Positions 26,309 to 32,962 are shown, counted from the stretch's first letter. The stretch: 64,000 bases of DNA from Haloarcula sp. CBA1127 (GCF_001485575.1 NZ_BCNB01000006.1:1674001-1738000); one strand, 5' to 3'. The notes: generated from the sequence alone by a model not told the origin. A program made the numbers and translations.

Positions 26309-26323
26309 CCACAAAACATTTAC
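26309..26323 (+). promoter_or_regulatory. Promoter of S-layer gene 1
   Basis: CCACAAAACATTTAC is nearly identical to a block upstream of the second S-layer gene (30051-30065) and lies at the same distance (50 versus 48 nt) from the conserved leader ATG. It reads as BRE plus TATA, giving a start near 26345-26350 and a leader of about 115 nt. Confidence 0.6.
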
Positions 26324-26358
26324 AACAGACACCTATCGTATAGACTGTACCCCTACCC

Positions 26359-26451
26359 ATGGCGCCAGAAGTGAGTACACCGGTCCGGTCTACACGCGAT
26401 CGCGCTGATTGCGTTCCGACCACGTGGAAAACTGCTGGGGTCGCCCGATAG
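26359..26451 (+). other. 30-codon upstream reading frame in the S-layer gene 1 leader
   Basis: An ATG at 26359 opens a 30-codon frame ending in TAG at 26449-26451, 12 nt before the S-layer ATG. The peptide would begin MAPEVSTPVRS and end VPTTWKTAGVAR. The second S-layer gene has an equal-length frame at the same place. Whether it is translated is unknown; RNA structure could equally explain the conservation. Confidence 0.4.
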
Positions 26452-26463
26452 CAAACACAAACT

Positions 26464-29208
26464 ATGACAGGAAATTCAGATAAGATTCGCAGCCTGTTTC
26501 TGACGGCGCTGATGGTCTTCTCGGTATTCGCCGGGACCGTCGCGTTCTCCGGTGGCGCAGCTGCCGCCGCGAACGTCTCCGTCGACCAGGCAGTCGAATA
26601 TAACAGCGGAACAGTTGAATTGGCATTTGATGGCGGCGTTGGAAGCGTCGCTTCCGGTGACGTCACAGTCTTCGTTGACGGCAACTCAAACCCGAGCAAC
26701 TTCGTCAGCGGCAACCCGTCCCTTTCGGACAATGATGGCGACGGCCGCCTTCAAATCGATCTTGACGACGACGTTCAGCCGAACCGCAACCTGACCATCA
26801 AGGTCACCGGTCTGACTGGTGGCGATGGCACGGTCGTTGCCGAGGACATCGATGTCACGTCGACAACGATTGATTCCTTCGGCAGTGACTCGGCTCGATC
26901 GTACAACGTCAACGTCTACCGTGGCGAAACAGTTGCCGTGGTGAACGACACCAACGGTGGCAATGTCTTCGTCGAAGAAGACCAAGGTAGCATTGTCTCC
27001 GACGACACGTACGAGACCAACAGTCAGGTCTACACCATTGATACCGAAAACCTCGACAGCGGTGAGCGCTACAACGTCTCGGTCAAACCACAGGACGACT
27101 CTGCTGGTGAAGCTGGCTTCAAGCTCAGCGACCTCGATCTGAACGTCGAAGCTGACGACAATGACATCACTGACGAGGACGAGGTCATCGCTAACGTCAC
27201 CATCACCCGTGGTGGCCAGCCGGCCAACGCGACTCTGTTCGCCGATGACGGCGACAAAGTCGACACGATTGTCAAGGACCGTCTCTCCGGTAACGATGAG
27301 ACGGACTTCATCTTCGACAACATCAGCAGCTACGACGGCTTCGACGCTGATGATGGTCCGTACACGATCAACGTGACGGACAACCAGACTGGCGTCACAG
27401 CCAGCACCGACCAGATCAACGTCTCCGAAGCTGGCGACGGTGATGCCAGCTTCGAGAGCAGTGTTGTCAACGACGATCGTGGTGATGTGGTCAACATCAC
27501 CTACCAGCTCGATAACGAAGATGAGGCTGTTGTCTTCGTCGGCGACGACGAGGACGACAACTACGCAATCTCCGGAACTATCGAGGACGACGACGGTGAC
27601 GGCGAAGTCACTGTCTCGTTCAACAGCTACCTCGCCGGCACGAGCGGTATCAGTGGCATCTCCGCCAGCGATATCCTCTACGTTGAGGGTGACGACGAGA
27701 TCACTGGTGTCGAAGAGGGTGGCTCCTTCAGTCGCAGCAACCTAGACGACGAGACGATTGAAGCCTCCAGCTACAACCTGAACGTCACTGCAGGCACGTC
27801 TCAGGAAGACAGCGCTGACTCCGTCGGAACGCTCCGACTGAGCGAGCGCTCCACTGAAAACATCCGTACCTGGGTGGCCCCACAGGATGCTGATCTCGAC
27901 GATGACGATATCGACATTCGTGATCGTATCGACCAGAACCTGACCCAGTCGAACGACATCGCTGACGGTGACCTCGTTGTCCACCAGATCGTTGCTTCTG
28001 GTGTCGAAGGCCCGCTCGCCTACGAAGAGGAAGTCAACAGCTCCTCCAGCACGACCCAAGCGTTCCTCCGGTCGACTGCTGGCGGCGCTAATAACAACGA
28101 CGTATTCAACCTCACCGTCAACCGTAGCGATGTCGGTGCAAACGCAGATCAGGACCCGCTCGTCCTCAACAGCTCCAACGTTGTTGTTGTCGACGACCCT
28201 GACAACAACACGTACTTCGTCGCTGTGGAGACCCAGAACGCAGAATTCGAGAGCGGCACGGCGATCCGCGAGGATGACGAAGATGACGAGCTCACGGCCA
28301 ACTTCACCGTGTCGCAGGACACTGGCCTGAGCGACGACAACGACAGCGCTGATGTGGAGTACAGCATCGTTGACCGCGACGCAACCATCGACACGACCAA
28401 CGGTCTCGTGCTGGTGCAGGCTGCCGCTGACCAGCAGATTACTGGAACGACCACGGTCGCGCCTGGCTCCGAATTTGAGGTCCAGATCGAATCCGAGAGT
28501 GAGTCCAACCCGTTCCTCGACCGACCTGAAGCGACTGTCGACGCGGACGGTACGTTCACTGCCACGGCCGACTTCAGTGACTACTCGGCAGGAACGAACT
28601 TCACCACTCAGACGCTCGATGTCGACGGTGACGAGCTCGGTGACGAAGAAGACGGACAGATCACCGATGCAGACACGGCCACTGTGAGCATCAGTGACCA
28701 GGAATCCGACGGTAGCGAAGTCGTCGTCGACAGCGCGCAGCTGTCCGCCGGTGGCTTCATCGCTGTCCATGCCGGTAACGCATCCGGCGACGTCGTCGGG
28801 AACTCCGAATACCTCGAGGCAGGCAGCCACGAGGACATCACGATCACGCTCGACGAACCGATGGACGAGGACTTCACGGCGGTCGCAATGCCGCACCTCG
28901 ACACCAACGGTAACGAAGCGTACGACTTCCCGGACGCTGACGGTCCGTACACCGCCAACGGCTCCGCCGTTACGGACAGTGCGAACGTGACCATCGCCAC
29001 CGAGGACACGCCTACGGACACGGAAGAGCCGACGGAAACCGAAACGGAACCGCCGGCAACCGACGAGGAAACTGACGCACCGGCAACCGATGAGCCGGCA
29101 ACCGAGGAAACCGAGACCACGGAAGCGTCCGGTCCCGGCTTCACGGCAGCCATCGCGCTCATCGCGCTCGTCGCTGCTGCACTCCTCGCCGTCCGACGCG
29201 ACAACTAA
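26464..29208 (+). CDS. S-layer glycoprotein 1
   Basis: A 914-residue major cell-surface glycoprotein. A Sec-type signal peptide (LFLTALMVFSVFAGTVAFSGGAAAA) is followed by haloarchaeal S-layer repeats rich in Asp and Gly, many N-x-S/T sites, a conserved BGTF-like surface domain near residues 740-830, a Thr/Glu/Pro-rich, probably O-glycosylated spacer (EEPTETETEPPATD), and a PGF-CTERM tail: PGF, a hydrophobic helix, and RRDN. ArtA is expected to cut near PGF and attach a lipid. The gene has a long conserved leader and a hairpin terminator and is nearly identical in large blocks to the second copy at 30203. Commonly named csg in this group. Confidence 0.93.
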   Translation: MTGNSDKIRSLFLTALMVFSVFAGTVAFSGGAAAAANVSVDQAVEYNSGTVELAFDGGVGSVASGDVTVFVDGNSNPSNFVSGNPSLSDNDGDGRLQIDLDDDVQPNRNLTIKVTGLTGGDGTVVAEDIDVTSTTIDSFGSDSARSYNVNVYRGETVAVVNDTNGGNVFVEEDQGSIVSDDTYETNSQVYTIDTENLDSGERYNVSVKPQDDSAGEAGFKLSDLDLNVEADDNDITDEDEVIANVTITRGGQPANATLFADDGDKVDTIVKDRLSGNDETDFIFDNISSYDGFDADDGPYTINVTDNQTGVTASTDQINVSEAGDGDASFESSVVNDDRGDVVNITYQLDNEDEAVVFVGDDEDDNYAISGTIEDDDGDGEVTVSFNSYLAGTSGISGISASDILYVEGDDEITGVEEGGSFSRSNLDDETIEASSYNLNVTAGTSQEDSADSVGTLRLSERSTENIRTWVAPQDADLDDDDIDIRDRIDQNLTQSNDIADGDLVVHQIVASGVEGPLAYEEEVNSSSSTTQAFLRSTAGGANNNDVFNLTVNRSDVGANADQDPLVLNSSNVVVVDDPDNNTYFVAVETQNAEFESGTAIREDDEDDELTANFTVSQDTGLSDDNDSADVEYSIVDRDATIDTTNGLVLVQAAADQQITGTTTVAPGSEFEVQIESESESNPFLDRPEATVDADGTFTATADFSDYSAGTNFTTQTLDVDGDELGDEEDGQITDADTATVSISDQESDGSEVVVDSAQLSAGGFIAVHAGNASGDVVGNSEYLEAGSHEDITITLDEPMDEDFTAVAMPHLDTNGNEAYDFPDADGPYTANGSAVTDSANVTIATEDTPTDTEEPTETETEPPATDEETDAPATDEPATEETETTEASGPGFTAAIALIALVAAALLAVRRDN

Positions 29209-29246
29209 CCGGAACTACTCCGGTCCCTGAACATCGGTTTTTCTTT
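29208..29246 (+). terminator. Hairpin terminator of S-layer gene 1
   Basis: ACCGGA (29208-29213, using the last base of the stop codon) pairs with TCCGGT (29219-29224) around a five-base loop; a T-rich run follows at 29238-29246. The second S-layer gene has the same structure with a compensatory change. Confidence 0.8.
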
Positions 29247-30050
29247 CGCGCGTGCGCAAGCAGTGCCAACAGACTACAAAACGGCCCATACTTGTTGTAG
29301 CCAGAGTGTTATCCGGGTCGCTTCTGAACGGCTAATTGCTGGTCCGCAGTCGTGATTGGGTCACTGTGAGGGTAGCTTCGGCAATCGACCTTGTGTTCGT
29401 AGATCGCATAGGACGGCGTTCTCAGCGGGACAGCGCTACCCGTGGCGCTCATCATGTACTGCCGGTCGACCTACGTTTTGTTGCGGTTGCAGTTGATAAT
29501 CGCTGCACCCGGTCTCCGTGTCTTTACGACACTGGCCGGGAACTTCGTGATGTCCCCGGCCGCTTGCAGCGTTGAGAACCAAGTCGTATGGCTCTTGTGA
29601 GAGGCTCGTTTGGAGGACGCTTCGAGCATCAAAGTCAACCTATCCGGGCGTTCAGAATTCACATCCGCGACCGTCTCTGTTGGTGTCCGATCTTCTCCGA
29701 ACAATACACGCCGGTCTGTGGCGTTCCTTGTGCTCCTCATATAGTTGCGCCAGCTCTTGGCTATCTGTTTTCATTTCAGCTGTATTACTCCCCACCAATC
29801 ACTGATAGCCGATTCCGGTTTTCATGATACCGAGATATCGCTTGCAGGCCACAGCAACATCGGACCTCGCGTTCATCGCCAGGCAGTGGAACGAACGTCG
29901 CTCGAATCAGGAGACAGAGGCGTATCTCAACCGGGGTGTTTTTCTATCCAATTTTTGAACAAGTCAGATAGACTTCCATATCAGGCCTAAATGTATGTCC
30001 AAAAACATTATTGAATAACTATTACTTGTAGTATACTTACCAACATTATT
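29247..30050. other. About 800 bp without a recognisable gene between the S-layer genes
   Basis: Several frames of 60-90 codons exist (for example minus strand 29471-29740), but their codon use is unlike neighbouring genes, none is recognised, and overlapping frames on both strands are similar in length. Around 29980-30050 the DNA is AT-rich, leading into the second S-layer promoter. It may contain decayed gene or mobile-element remnants; I see no inverted-repeat ends or transposase motif. Confidence 0.4.
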
Positions 30051-30065
30051 CCACAAAGCATTTAC
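30051..30065 (+). promoter_or_regulatory. Promoter of S-layer gene 2
   Basis: CCACAAAGCATTTAC matches the block at 26309-26323 with one change and stands 48 nt before the leader ATG. It is the likely BRE/TATA for a leader of about 115 nt. Confidence 0.6.
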
Positions 30066-30098
30066 CACACTTCGGGCAATGTACCGATACCCCTACCC

Positions 30099-30191
30099 AT
30101 GACGCCAGAAGTGAGTACGCCGGTCCGGTCTATGCGTGGCCTCGGTGGTCACGTTCCGACCACGTGGAAAACTGCTGGGGTCGCCCGATAG
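30099..30191 (+). other. 30-codon upstream reading frame in the S-layer gene 2 leader
   Basis: The frame from ATG 30099 to TAG 30189-30191 has 30 codons, the same as in copy 1, and ends 11 nt before the S-layer ATG. It begins MTPEVSTPVRS and ends VPTTWKTAGVAR; the six or seven middle residues differ completely from copy 1 without any change in length. Confidence 0.4.
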
Positions 30192-30202
30192 CAAACACAA
30201 AC

Positions 30203-32962
30203 ATGACAGATACAAGCGAAAAAATCCGCAGCCTGTTTCTGACGGCGCTGATGGTCTTCTCGGTATTTGCCGGGACCATCGCGTTCTCCGGTGGCGCAGC
30301 CGCCGCCGCGAACGTCAGCGTTCAGCAGGCAGTCGAATATAACGACGGTACAGTTGAATTGGCATTTGATGGCGGCACTGGGAGTGTCGCTCCCGGCGAC
30401 GTCACAGTCTTCGTTGACGGCAACTCAAACCCGAGCAACTTCGTCAGCGGCAACCCGTCCCTTTCGGACAATGATGGCGACGGACGTCTTCAGATCGATC
30501 TTGACGACGACGTTCAGCCGAACCGCAACCTGACCATCAAGGTCAGCAATCTCGGCGGTGACTCGGTCGTTGCCGAAGACATCGACGTCACGTCGACGTC
30601 GATCACGTCCTTCGGCAGTGACTCGGCTCGATCGTACAACATCAACGTCTACCGTGGCGAAACAGTTGCCGTGGTGAACGACACCAACGGTGGCAATGTC
30701 TTCGTCGAAGAAGACCAGGGTAGCATTGTCTCCGACGACACGTACGAGGCCAACAGTCAGGTCTACACTGTCGACACGGAAAACCTCGACACTGGTCAGC
30801 GCTACAACGTCTCGGTCTCGCCGCAGAACGACTCTGTCGGTGAAGCCGGCTTCAAGGTCAGCGATCTCGACCTGAACGTCGAAGCTGACGACAATGACAT
30901 CACCGACGAGGACGATGTCATCGCCAACGTCACCATCACTCGCGGTGGCCAGCCGGCCAACGCGACTCTGTTCGCCGATGACGGCGACAAAGTCGACACG
31001 ATTGTCAAGAAACGTCTCTCCGGTAACGATGAGACGGACTTCATCTTCGGCAACATCAGCAGCTACGACGGCTTCGACGCTGATGATGGTCCGTACACGA
31101 TCAACGTGACGGACAACCAGACTGGCGTCACAGCCAGCACCAGCCAGATCAACGTCTCCGAAGCTGAAGACGGCGACGCCAGCTTCGAGAGCAGCGTTGT
31201 GACGGACGAGCGTGGTGACGTGGCGAACATCACCTACCAGCTCGATAACGAAGACGAAGCTGTTGTCTTCGTCGGCGACGACGAGGACGACAACTACGCA
31301 ATCTCCGGAACTATCGAGGACGACGACGGTGACGGCGAAGTCACTGTCTCGTTCAACAGCTACCTCGCCGGTGGTAGCAGCGATGTCGGAGCTGGCTTCA
31401 GTAGTGCCAGTGTTTCCGCTAGCGATATCCTCTACGTTGAGGGTGACGACGAGATCACTGGTGTCGAAGAGCACGGCACCTTCGAACGCACCAACCTTAG
31501 CGAAGAGACAATTGAAGCCTCCAGCTACAACCTGAACGTCACTGCAGGCACGTCTCAGGACAGTAGCGCTGACTCCGTCGGAACGCTCCGACTGAGCGAG
31601 CGTTCCACTGAGAGCATGCGTAGCTGGGTGGCCCCACAGGACGCTGAGCTCGACGATGACGATATCGACATTCGTGATCGTATCGGCCAGAACCTGACTC
31701 AATCGAACAACATCGCTGACGGTGACCTCGTTGTCCACCAGATCGTTGCTTCTGGTGTCGAAGGCCCGCTCGCCTACGAAGAGGAAGTCAACAGCTCCTC
31801 CAGCACGACCCAGGCGTTCCTCCGGTCGACTGCTGGTGGCCCTGGTAACAACGACGCGTTCAACCTCACCGTCAACCGCACTGATGTCGGTGCAAACGCA
31901 GATGAGGATCCGCTTGACCTCAACAGCACCAACGTCGTTGTTGTCGACGACCCTGACAACAACACGTACTTCGTCGCTGTGAAGACGGAGCAAGCGAACT
32001 TCTCCAGCGGCGTTCCGATCCGCGACGACGACGAAGATGACGTCCTTACGGCCAACTTCACCGTGTCGCAGGACACTGGTCTGGCCGAAGACAACGACGG
32101 CATCGAAGACAGTTACAGCATCGTTGACCGCGATGCAACTCTCGACACGGCTAACGGCCTCGTGCAGGCTCAGGCTGCCGCTGACCAGCAGGTTACCGGA
32201 ACGACCACGGTCGCGCCTGGCTCCGAGCTTGAGGTTGAAGTCGAGTCCGAGAGTGACTCCAACCCGTTCCTTGACCGACCTGAAGCGACTGTCGGCCAGA
32301 ACGGTACGTACACCGCTACGGTTGACTTCAGCGCCTACTCGGCAGGAACGAACTTCACCGCTCAGACGCTCGACGTCGACGGTGACAACCTCGGTGACGA
32401 GGAAGACGGACAGCTCACCGATTCGGACACGGCCACTGTGAGTATCAGTGACCAGGAATCCGACGGTAGCGAAGTCGTCGTCGACAGCGCACAGCTGTCC
32501 GCCGGTGGCTTCATCGCAGTCCACGCCGGTAACGCATCCGGCGACGTCGTCGGGAACTCCGAGTACCTCGAGGCAGGCAGCCACGAGGACATCACGATCA
32601 CGCTCGACGAGCCGATGGACGAGGACTTCACTGCGGTCGCAATGCCGCACCTCGACACCAACGGCAACGAAGCGTACGACTTCCCTGGCGCTGACGGTCC
32701 GTACACCGCTAACGGCTCCGCCGTTACGGACAGTGCGAACGTGACTGTTGGCACCGAGGAAGAGCCGACGGCCACGGAAGAGCCGACGGAAACCGAAACG
32801 GAACCGCCGGCAACCGAGGAGCAGACTGAGGAGACCACCACCATGGACTCCGGAACCGACGAAGCTGAGACCACGGAAGCGTCCGGTCCCGGCTTCACGG
32901 CAGCCATCGCGCTCATCGCGCTCGTCGCTGCTGCACTCCTCGCTGTCCGACGCGACAACTAA
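30203..32962 (+). CDS. S-layer glycoprotein 2
   Basis: A 919-residue tandem paralogue of the S-layer protein at 26464. Signal peptide, Asp-rich repeats, the acidic BGTF-like domain and PGF-CTERM tail (SGPGFTAAIALIALVAAALL, then RRDN) are shared. Differences cluster in short blocks: after residue about 390 (GGSSDVGAGFSSASV versus a shorter form), around residue 620-670, and in the Thr-rich spacer (EEQTEETTTMDSGTDEAE). Other blocks are identical at the DNA level over dozens of bases. ATG 30203 is chosen; an in-frame GTG at 30164 lies in the leader and is out of frame in copy 1, so it is not a conserved start. Confidence 0.93.
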   Translation: MTDTSEKIRSLFLTALMVFSVFAGTIAFSGGAAAAANVSVQQAVEYNDGTVELAFDGGTGSVAPGDVTVFVDGNSNPSNFVSGNPSLSDNDGDGRLQIDLDDDVQPNRNLTIKVSNLGGDSVVAEDIDVTSTSITSFGSDSARSYNINVYRGETVAVVNDTNGGNVFVEEDQGSIVSDDTYEANSQVYTVDTENLDTGQRYNVSVSPQNDSVGEAGFKVSDLDLNVEADDNDITDEDDVIANVTITRGGQPANATLFADDGDKVDTIVKKRLSGNDETDFIFGNISSYDGFDADDGPYTINVTDNQTGVTASTSQINVSEAEDGDASFESSVVTDERGDVANITYQLDNEDEAVVFVGDDEDDNYAISGTIEDDDGDGEVTVSFNSYLAGGSSDVGAGFSSASVSASDILYVEGDDEITGVEEHGTFERTNLSEETIEASSYNLNVTAGTSQDSSADSVGTLRLSERSTESMRSWVAPQDAELDDDDIDIRDRIGQNLTQSNNIADGDLVVHQIVASGVEGPLAYEEEVNSSSSTTQAFLRSTAGGPGNNDAFNLTVNRTDVGANADEDPLDLNSTNVVVVDDPDNNTYFVAVKTEQANFSSGVPIRDDDEDDVLTANFTVSQDTGLAEDNDGIEDSYSIVDRDATLDTANGLVQAQAAADQQVTGTTTVAPGSELEVEVESESDSNPFLDRPEATVGQNGTYTATVDFSAYSAGTNFTAQTLDVDGDNLGDEEDGQLTDSDTATVSISDQESDGSEVVVDSAQLSAGGFIAVHAGNASGDVVGNSEYLEAGSHEDITITLDEPMDEDFTAVAMPHLDTNGNEAYDFPGADGPYTANGSAVTDSANVTVGTEEEPTATEEPTETETEPPATEEQTEETTTMDSGTDEAETTEASGPGFTAAIALIALVAAALLAVRRDN

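Follow-up and report, generated by a model that had tools for sequence, protein, structure and literature searches.

Haloarchaeal S-layer gene leaders pair a conserved RNA hairpin with a short upstream reading frame that may hand ribosomes to the S-layer start

Two tandem S-layer glycoprotein genes (26464-29208 and 30203-32962) lie in the 64,000-nt stretch of Haloarcula sp. CBA1127 analysed here and called the window (GCF_001485575.1, NZ_BCNB01000006.1:1674001-1738000), and each is preceded by a leader with an upstream open reading frame (uORF) of the same length. The question raised by this locus was whether the uORF encodes a leader peptide, serves the translation of the S-layer gene, or is only a by-product of an RNA structure. 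The features, in window coordinates, were as follows.

26319..26323, + strand: TATA-like box of gene 1, 29 nt ahead of the conserved 5' end
26348..26358, + strand: near-invariant 5' block TACCCCTACCC of gene 1, putative mRNA 5' end, directly before the upstream ATG (uATG)
26359..26451, + strand: uORF 1, 30 codons plus TAG, translated as MAPEVSTPVRSTRDRADCVPTTWKTAGVAR and stop
26361..26372, + strand: basal helix P1, 5' strand, gene 1 (alignment A1 columns 14-25)
26378..26388, + strand: helix P2, 5' strand, gene 1
26394..26401, + strand: central hairpin P3, 5' strand, gene 1, ACGCGATC
26407..26414, + strand: central hairpin P3, 3' strand, gene 1, GATTGCGT
26416..26426, + strand: helix P2, 3' strand, gene 1
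26431..26442, + strand: basal helix P1, 3' strand, gene 1
26452..26463, + strand: A-rich 12-nt spacer of gene 1, without a Shine-Dalgarno motif
26464..29208, + strand: S-layer glycoprotein gene 1, 914 aa, with surface-glycoprotein signal peptide and PGF-CTERM
30088..30098, + strand: 5' block TACCCCTACCC of gene 2
30099..30191, + strand: uORF 2, 30 codons plus TAG, translated as MTPEVSTPVRSMRGLGGHVPTTWKTAGVAR and stop
30101..30112, + strand: P1, 5' strand, gene 2
30134..30141, + strand: central hairpin P3, 5' strand, gene 2, GCGTGGCC
30147..30154, + strand: central hairpin P3, 3' strand, gene 2, GGTCACGT
30171..30182, + strand: P1, 3' strand, gene 2
30192..30202, + strand: A-rich 11-nt spacer of gene 2
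30203..32962, + strand: S-layer glycoprotein gene 2, 919 aa, with haloarchaeal surface-glycoprotein signal peptide and PGF-CTERM anchor

The sequence-only reading had described two 30-codon ATG...TAG frames in leaders of about 115 nt, ending 12 and 11 nt before the S-layer ATGs (26464 and 30203), and the coordinates and translations agreed with this. The leaders extended over ~114-115 nt from the putative transcription start, predicted near 26349 for gene 1 and 30089 for gene 2 and placed by a TATA-like box 27-30 nt upstream. Both window genes had such a box 27-29 nt ahead of TACCCCTACCC, and the TTTA[TC]-to-TACCCC distance was 29 nt in 103 of 167 leaders. Gene 2 begins at GTG 30164 in the program-made ORF list, and ATG 30203 was used as its start here. 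The two uORFs differed at 12 of 93 sites with no indels, and 10 of these differences fell within uORF nt 34-56, which reproduced the earlier observation of identical ends around a strongly differing middle third. This segment is the central hairpin, and both window sequences formed all of its pairs (8/8) despite the differences; what varies in the middle third is therefore a hairpin under compensatory evolution. The two leaders were homologous, with 89% identity across 123 aligned bases, so that their identical uORF length is by itself no independent evidence and becomes evidence only through comparison with other leaders.

The leaders of the nearest genus members were 95-98% identical to those of the window, and the closest named relatives included Haloarcula argentinensis and Haloarcula japonica. 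The comparison of S-layer leaders across Haloarcula bore out the conservation of the frame: the homologous TAG was in frame in 40 of 40 leaders, with frames of 28, 29 or 30 codons, and the uATG was kept in 38 and lost in only 2. The spacer after the TAG ranged from 11 to 16 nt and occurred in all three phases. Several other leaders and paralogs were recorded. Three distant Haloarcula S-layer-like paralogs (L049, L050 and L121) had a diverged leader with a frame of ~24-25 codons ending >30 nt before the main start. Two further S-layer-like paralogs, L051 (G000:C6:3117100-3117700) and L052, had no such leader; close to their start they carried TTAGGCTAGCCTAA / TTAGGTATGCCTAA-type palindromes resembling operators of a DtxR-type metal-dependent repressor. 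In one assembly both S-layer leaders were duplicated around an N (L015 and L042, G001 contig 50), which is probably a scaffold join via the repeated leader and not biology.

Folding-energy z-scores of the two single window leaders were unremarkable (-0.51 and -0.76), and the claim of a structure therefore rests on covariation, not on stability. Among 39 Haloarcula leaders, 98.8% of 965 cells were paired, and 46 cells were compensatory on both sides, versus 8.2 after shuffling and at most 12 when the partner was slid. Order-wide, P1 (GGUGACAG with CUGUCGCC), which starts 2 nt into the uATG, had 32 two-sided cells versus 9.3 after shuffling. The compensatory base pairs that mark a structured cis-regulatory leader RNA were thus present, and this comparison establishes the leader as a well-supported conserved RNA hairpin with compensatory changes. 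Between P1 and the variable but paired upper part, AGUA (5' side, genus profile) lay opposite a conserved GAAA (alignment A2). The A, G, U and A of the 5' side were each conserved at 88-91% by genus, and the AGUA/GAA internal loop resembles the sarcin-ricin (loop E) motif. A search of Rfam 15 gave no family matching the leaders, even at E up to 1.

The 11 nt of TACCCCTACCC, together with A and G in the ANG that comes next, were almost invariant in 45 genera and lay largely outside P1. Pairing of the invariant ACCCCUACCC with 16S rRNA was also considered; the best site was GGGTAGGAGT at 16S nt 625, and as ~9% of shuffles equalled it, this pairing was unsupported.

Within the family, a covariance model built from the Haloarcula leaders had matches in 86 of 146 genomes, covering 16 of 22 genera, and at the scale of the order it matched 146 of 392 genomes and 45 of the 95 genera sampled. 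Two other families, scanned with an order-wide model, had the element in 27 of 28 genomes and in 92 of 170. When the DNA pattern of the 5' part was scanned in ~85,000 species, only haloarchaea matched, and the pattern was absent from the viral contigs scanned. The genome of CBA1127 contained just two copies, both upstream of S-layer genes, and a search of it for further genes with the same leader gave none. Across genera the leader was ~70-150 nt long, usually 100-125 nt. One strongly shortened leader (L190, G255; 73 nt including the start codon) retained a 20-codon frame with a 4-nt overlap.

Since the uORF overlaps a hairpin ahead of a gene with high expression, it could act as a regulatory leader peptide, in which the nascent peptide or specific codons would stall the ribosome and switch the hairpin as in attenuators. 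However, the within-genus dN/dS-like ratio of the uORF was 0.63, versus 0.80 ± 0.36 for shuffled columns, and that of another open frame was 0.66. Amino-acid conservation beyond nucleotide conservation, as expected of a small protein or leader peptide, was not seen. In the 5' core the third codon positions were conserved and the second positions variable, the reverse of protein constraint, and across genera no conserved codon run or C-terminal motif was seen in the uORF. The comparison thus establishes that the amino-acid sequence is not constrained beyond chance; conservation of the peptide was rejected, the functional leader peptide considered in the sequence-only reading was unsupported, and regulation by a stalling peptide is extremely unlikely.

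The same observations would suit a pure RNA element, in which the leader would act solely as a hairpin that stabilises the 5' end or loads ribosomes, and the uORF would be there by accident, as a result of conserved nucleotides (ATGG at the base of P1). The strong covariation, the conserved third and variable second codon positions of the 5' core and the unconstrained peptide all agree with this explanation. By genus, the A and G of the uATG were conserved at 100% and the T at 83%, and the A was never replaced towards GTG or TTG, so that these nucleotides serve another role too. Several lineages had lost the uATG and kept the hairpin. These included three genomes, which we infer to be Haloferax, whose S-layer protein shared 73-83% identity with the H. 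volcanii protein across the first 188 residues and in which the hairpin was seen by eye, as well as some Halobacterium-type leaders and part of another family. The persistence of the hairpin in genomes with an H. volcanii-like S-layer protein fits a pure RNA element, and since lineages without the uORF retain it, the hairpin probably also serves a separate purpose, in stability or ribosome loading. It also follows that the usual model species may hide the uORF. One leader of this group (L255, whose S-layer protein has 83% identity with the H. volcanii protein across 188 residues) had no uATG at the usual site and contained an internal ATG that opened a 12-codon frame ending as ATGA at the main ATG; this frame was absent in the sister genomes L256 and L257.

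The position of the stop was then compared in other genera. In the first set of 113 uATG leaders outside Haloarcula, the length from the uATG to the main ATG was 2 mod 3 in 82, with 15 different lengths. Such lengths allow the uORF to stop at the TGA of ATGA and to overlap the S-layer start by 4 nt, and exactly this overlap was present in 58 of the 113. Counting also the held-out set described below (26/77), the stop was at -4 nt in 84 of 190 uATG leaders of related genera, and in those not at -4 it was mostly 0-16 nt upstream of the main start. Frameshifts or early stops in related leaders had been named beforehand as evidence against the frame, and such cases formed a minority: about 25 of the 190 uATG leaders outside Haloarcula stopped >16 nt upstream, and several lineages had lost the ATG.

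When the leaders were split at the end of P1, each half varied in phase, yet the two summed to 2 mod 3 in 79 of 110 leaders, versus 39.5 expected from the product of the table margins. P1 was placed by best complementarity in this comparison, so it may be misplaced in a few leaders, which leaves the total phase unaffected. With one random leader per genus the compensation was seen in 27 of 37 (13.3 expected), and with permutation inside families in 27 of 36 genera (14.1 expected, permuted maximum 26); phylogeny was controlled coarsely in these tests, by genus and family. The 13 first-set leaders without a uATG outside the genus gave a mixed picture as a negative control, perhaps because the second codon of many is an in-frame GTG.

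Because the phase pattern had first been noticed in this set, new leaders were collected as a held-out set. The same phase was found in 41 of 77 held-out uATG leaders (p=2.5e-4) and in 32 of 55 distinct genus-length combinations (p=1.4e-4); the signal was weaker than in the first set (53% vs 73%). For both sets combined, 70 of 114 unique genus-length combinations were in phase (p=8e-10, with phylogeny ignored). In the held-out uATG leaders, 27 stops lay 0-16 nt ahead of the main ATG (8.3 expected), 16 were early (30.7 expected), and in-frame fusions numbered 0 (7.4 expected). In contrast, the 22 held-out leaders without a uATG fitted the null: early stops 11 vs 12.2 expected, stops 0-16 nt upstream 1 vs 1.6, fusions 3 vs 1.7, and stops at -4 6 vs 5.2. 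By phase alone, uATG and non-uATG leaders did not differ significantly (Fisher p=0.15). The contrast between the two groups of held-out leaders is the strongest argument that ribosomes read the uORF and that the place of termination matters. The modulo-3 compensation and the held-out stops establish, by comparison, that the upstream frame and its stop are constrained to end at the downstream start.

These results weigh against the pure RNA element, which leaves unexplained the modulo-3 compensation between the leader halves, the surplus of stops lying 0-16 nt ahead of the main ATG with no held-out in-frame fusion, and the lack of exactly these features in leaders without a uATG. We regard it as rather unlikely. 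The sequence-only reading had offered a coupled translated leader and an RNA element as alternatives; the covariation favours the RNA element, and the frame and stop-position constraint in many genera and in the held-out set points to coupled translation at the same time, the peptide part alone falling away.

We therefore propose that the haloarchaeal S-layer 5' leader is a two-part control region, hairpin plus short uORF, in which selection would act on the frame and on where it terminates rather than on the peptide. Judged from sequence comparison, it is fairly probable that, within the structured leader, the uORF is translated and hands ribosomes to the S-layer start by termination-reinitiation. 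Ribosomes would initiate at the 5'-proximal uAUG, ~10 nt from the putative mRNA 5' end, and open the hairpin during translation of 20-50 throw-away codons. They would then terminate on the S-layer AUG or just ahead of it and, as this start lacks a Shine-Dalgarno sequence, reinitiate there. A Shine-Dalgarno-like motif was missing from 264 of 266 spacers, and the spacer before the S-layer ATG was A-rich (46% A). Termination-reinitiation at overlapping starts has been established experimentally in Haloferax volcanii (Huber et al. 2019, PMC6728339), where a gap of +13 nt lowers reinitiation by 60% and one of +22 nt abolishes it (2023 study, PMC10666635). In the many related genera with the ATGA overlap at -4, coupling would be tight. 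In Haloarcula, with the UAG 11-16 nt upstream, it would probably be partial; the +12 and +11 nt of the window, not an overlap or a gap of a few nt, are a weakly coupling distance in H. volcanii (PMC10666635), and this suboptimal spacing predicts only partial coupling. Besides this spacing, the less conserved T of the uATG, the loss of the uATG from lineages that kept the hairpin and the minority of early stops speak against the proposal.

In other systems, uORFs often reduce downstream translation. An inhibitory uORF, diverting ribosomes from the S-layer start and limiting S-layer synthesis, would accord with this and with the suboptimal Haloarcula spacing (PMC10666635). However, the commonest end is the 4-nt overlap that couples haloarchaeal genes, inhibition would not require the uORF to terminate on the main AUG or immediately ahead of it, and S-layer genes belong to the most strongly expressed ones, being within the top three transcripts in Haloquadratum (PMC5496347). 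Inhibition is therefore very unlikely. Termination-reinitiation could also be extended to an S-layer dosage device of the whole order: a hairpin with a content-free uORF whose sole job is ribosome loading by 4-nt-overlap reinitiation, output being set by ribosome supply or growth state, and lineages with the stop moved upstream or the uATG dropped being retuned. This extension is offered tentatively and is possible rather than probable.

S-layer proteins rank among the most abundant in these cells, and the comparative signal turns the translation of their leadered mRNAs without a Shine-Dalgarno sequence into a simple reporter question. If true, the proposal would carry termination-reinitiation beyond operons to the leader of a single gene, and Rfam would gain an order-wide RNA element that it lacks. 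In the literature searched, which did not cover the Haloarcula japonica csg paper (Wakai et al. 1997), neither a uORF nor a conserved RNA element was described for S-layer leaders. The main text of the H. volcanii 5'-UTR survey (Babski et al. 2016, PMC4983044) did not mention the S-layer gene under the names searched.

Compared with known systems, the S-layer leader shares with the uORFs of that survey short frames (15-31 aa) in haloarchaeal leaders; however, the survey covered only leaders of 150-250 nt, while the S-layer leader is usually 100-125 nt and is conserved across genera. Like the cis-regulatory leaders in Rfam, it has a conserved covarying hairpin, but it has no Rfam 15 match. Like bacterial attenuator leader peptides, its short uORF overlaps an RNA structure, but it has neither a conserved peptide nor regulatory codons. 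With the overlapping gene pairs of H. volcanii (PMC6728339, PMC10666635) it shares the dominant ATGA overlap and the dependence on short distance. Unlike those pairs, its first cistron is a frame of 20-50 codons without a conserved peptide, placed inside a conserved hairpin, and the spacing in the window is +11/+12, not -4.
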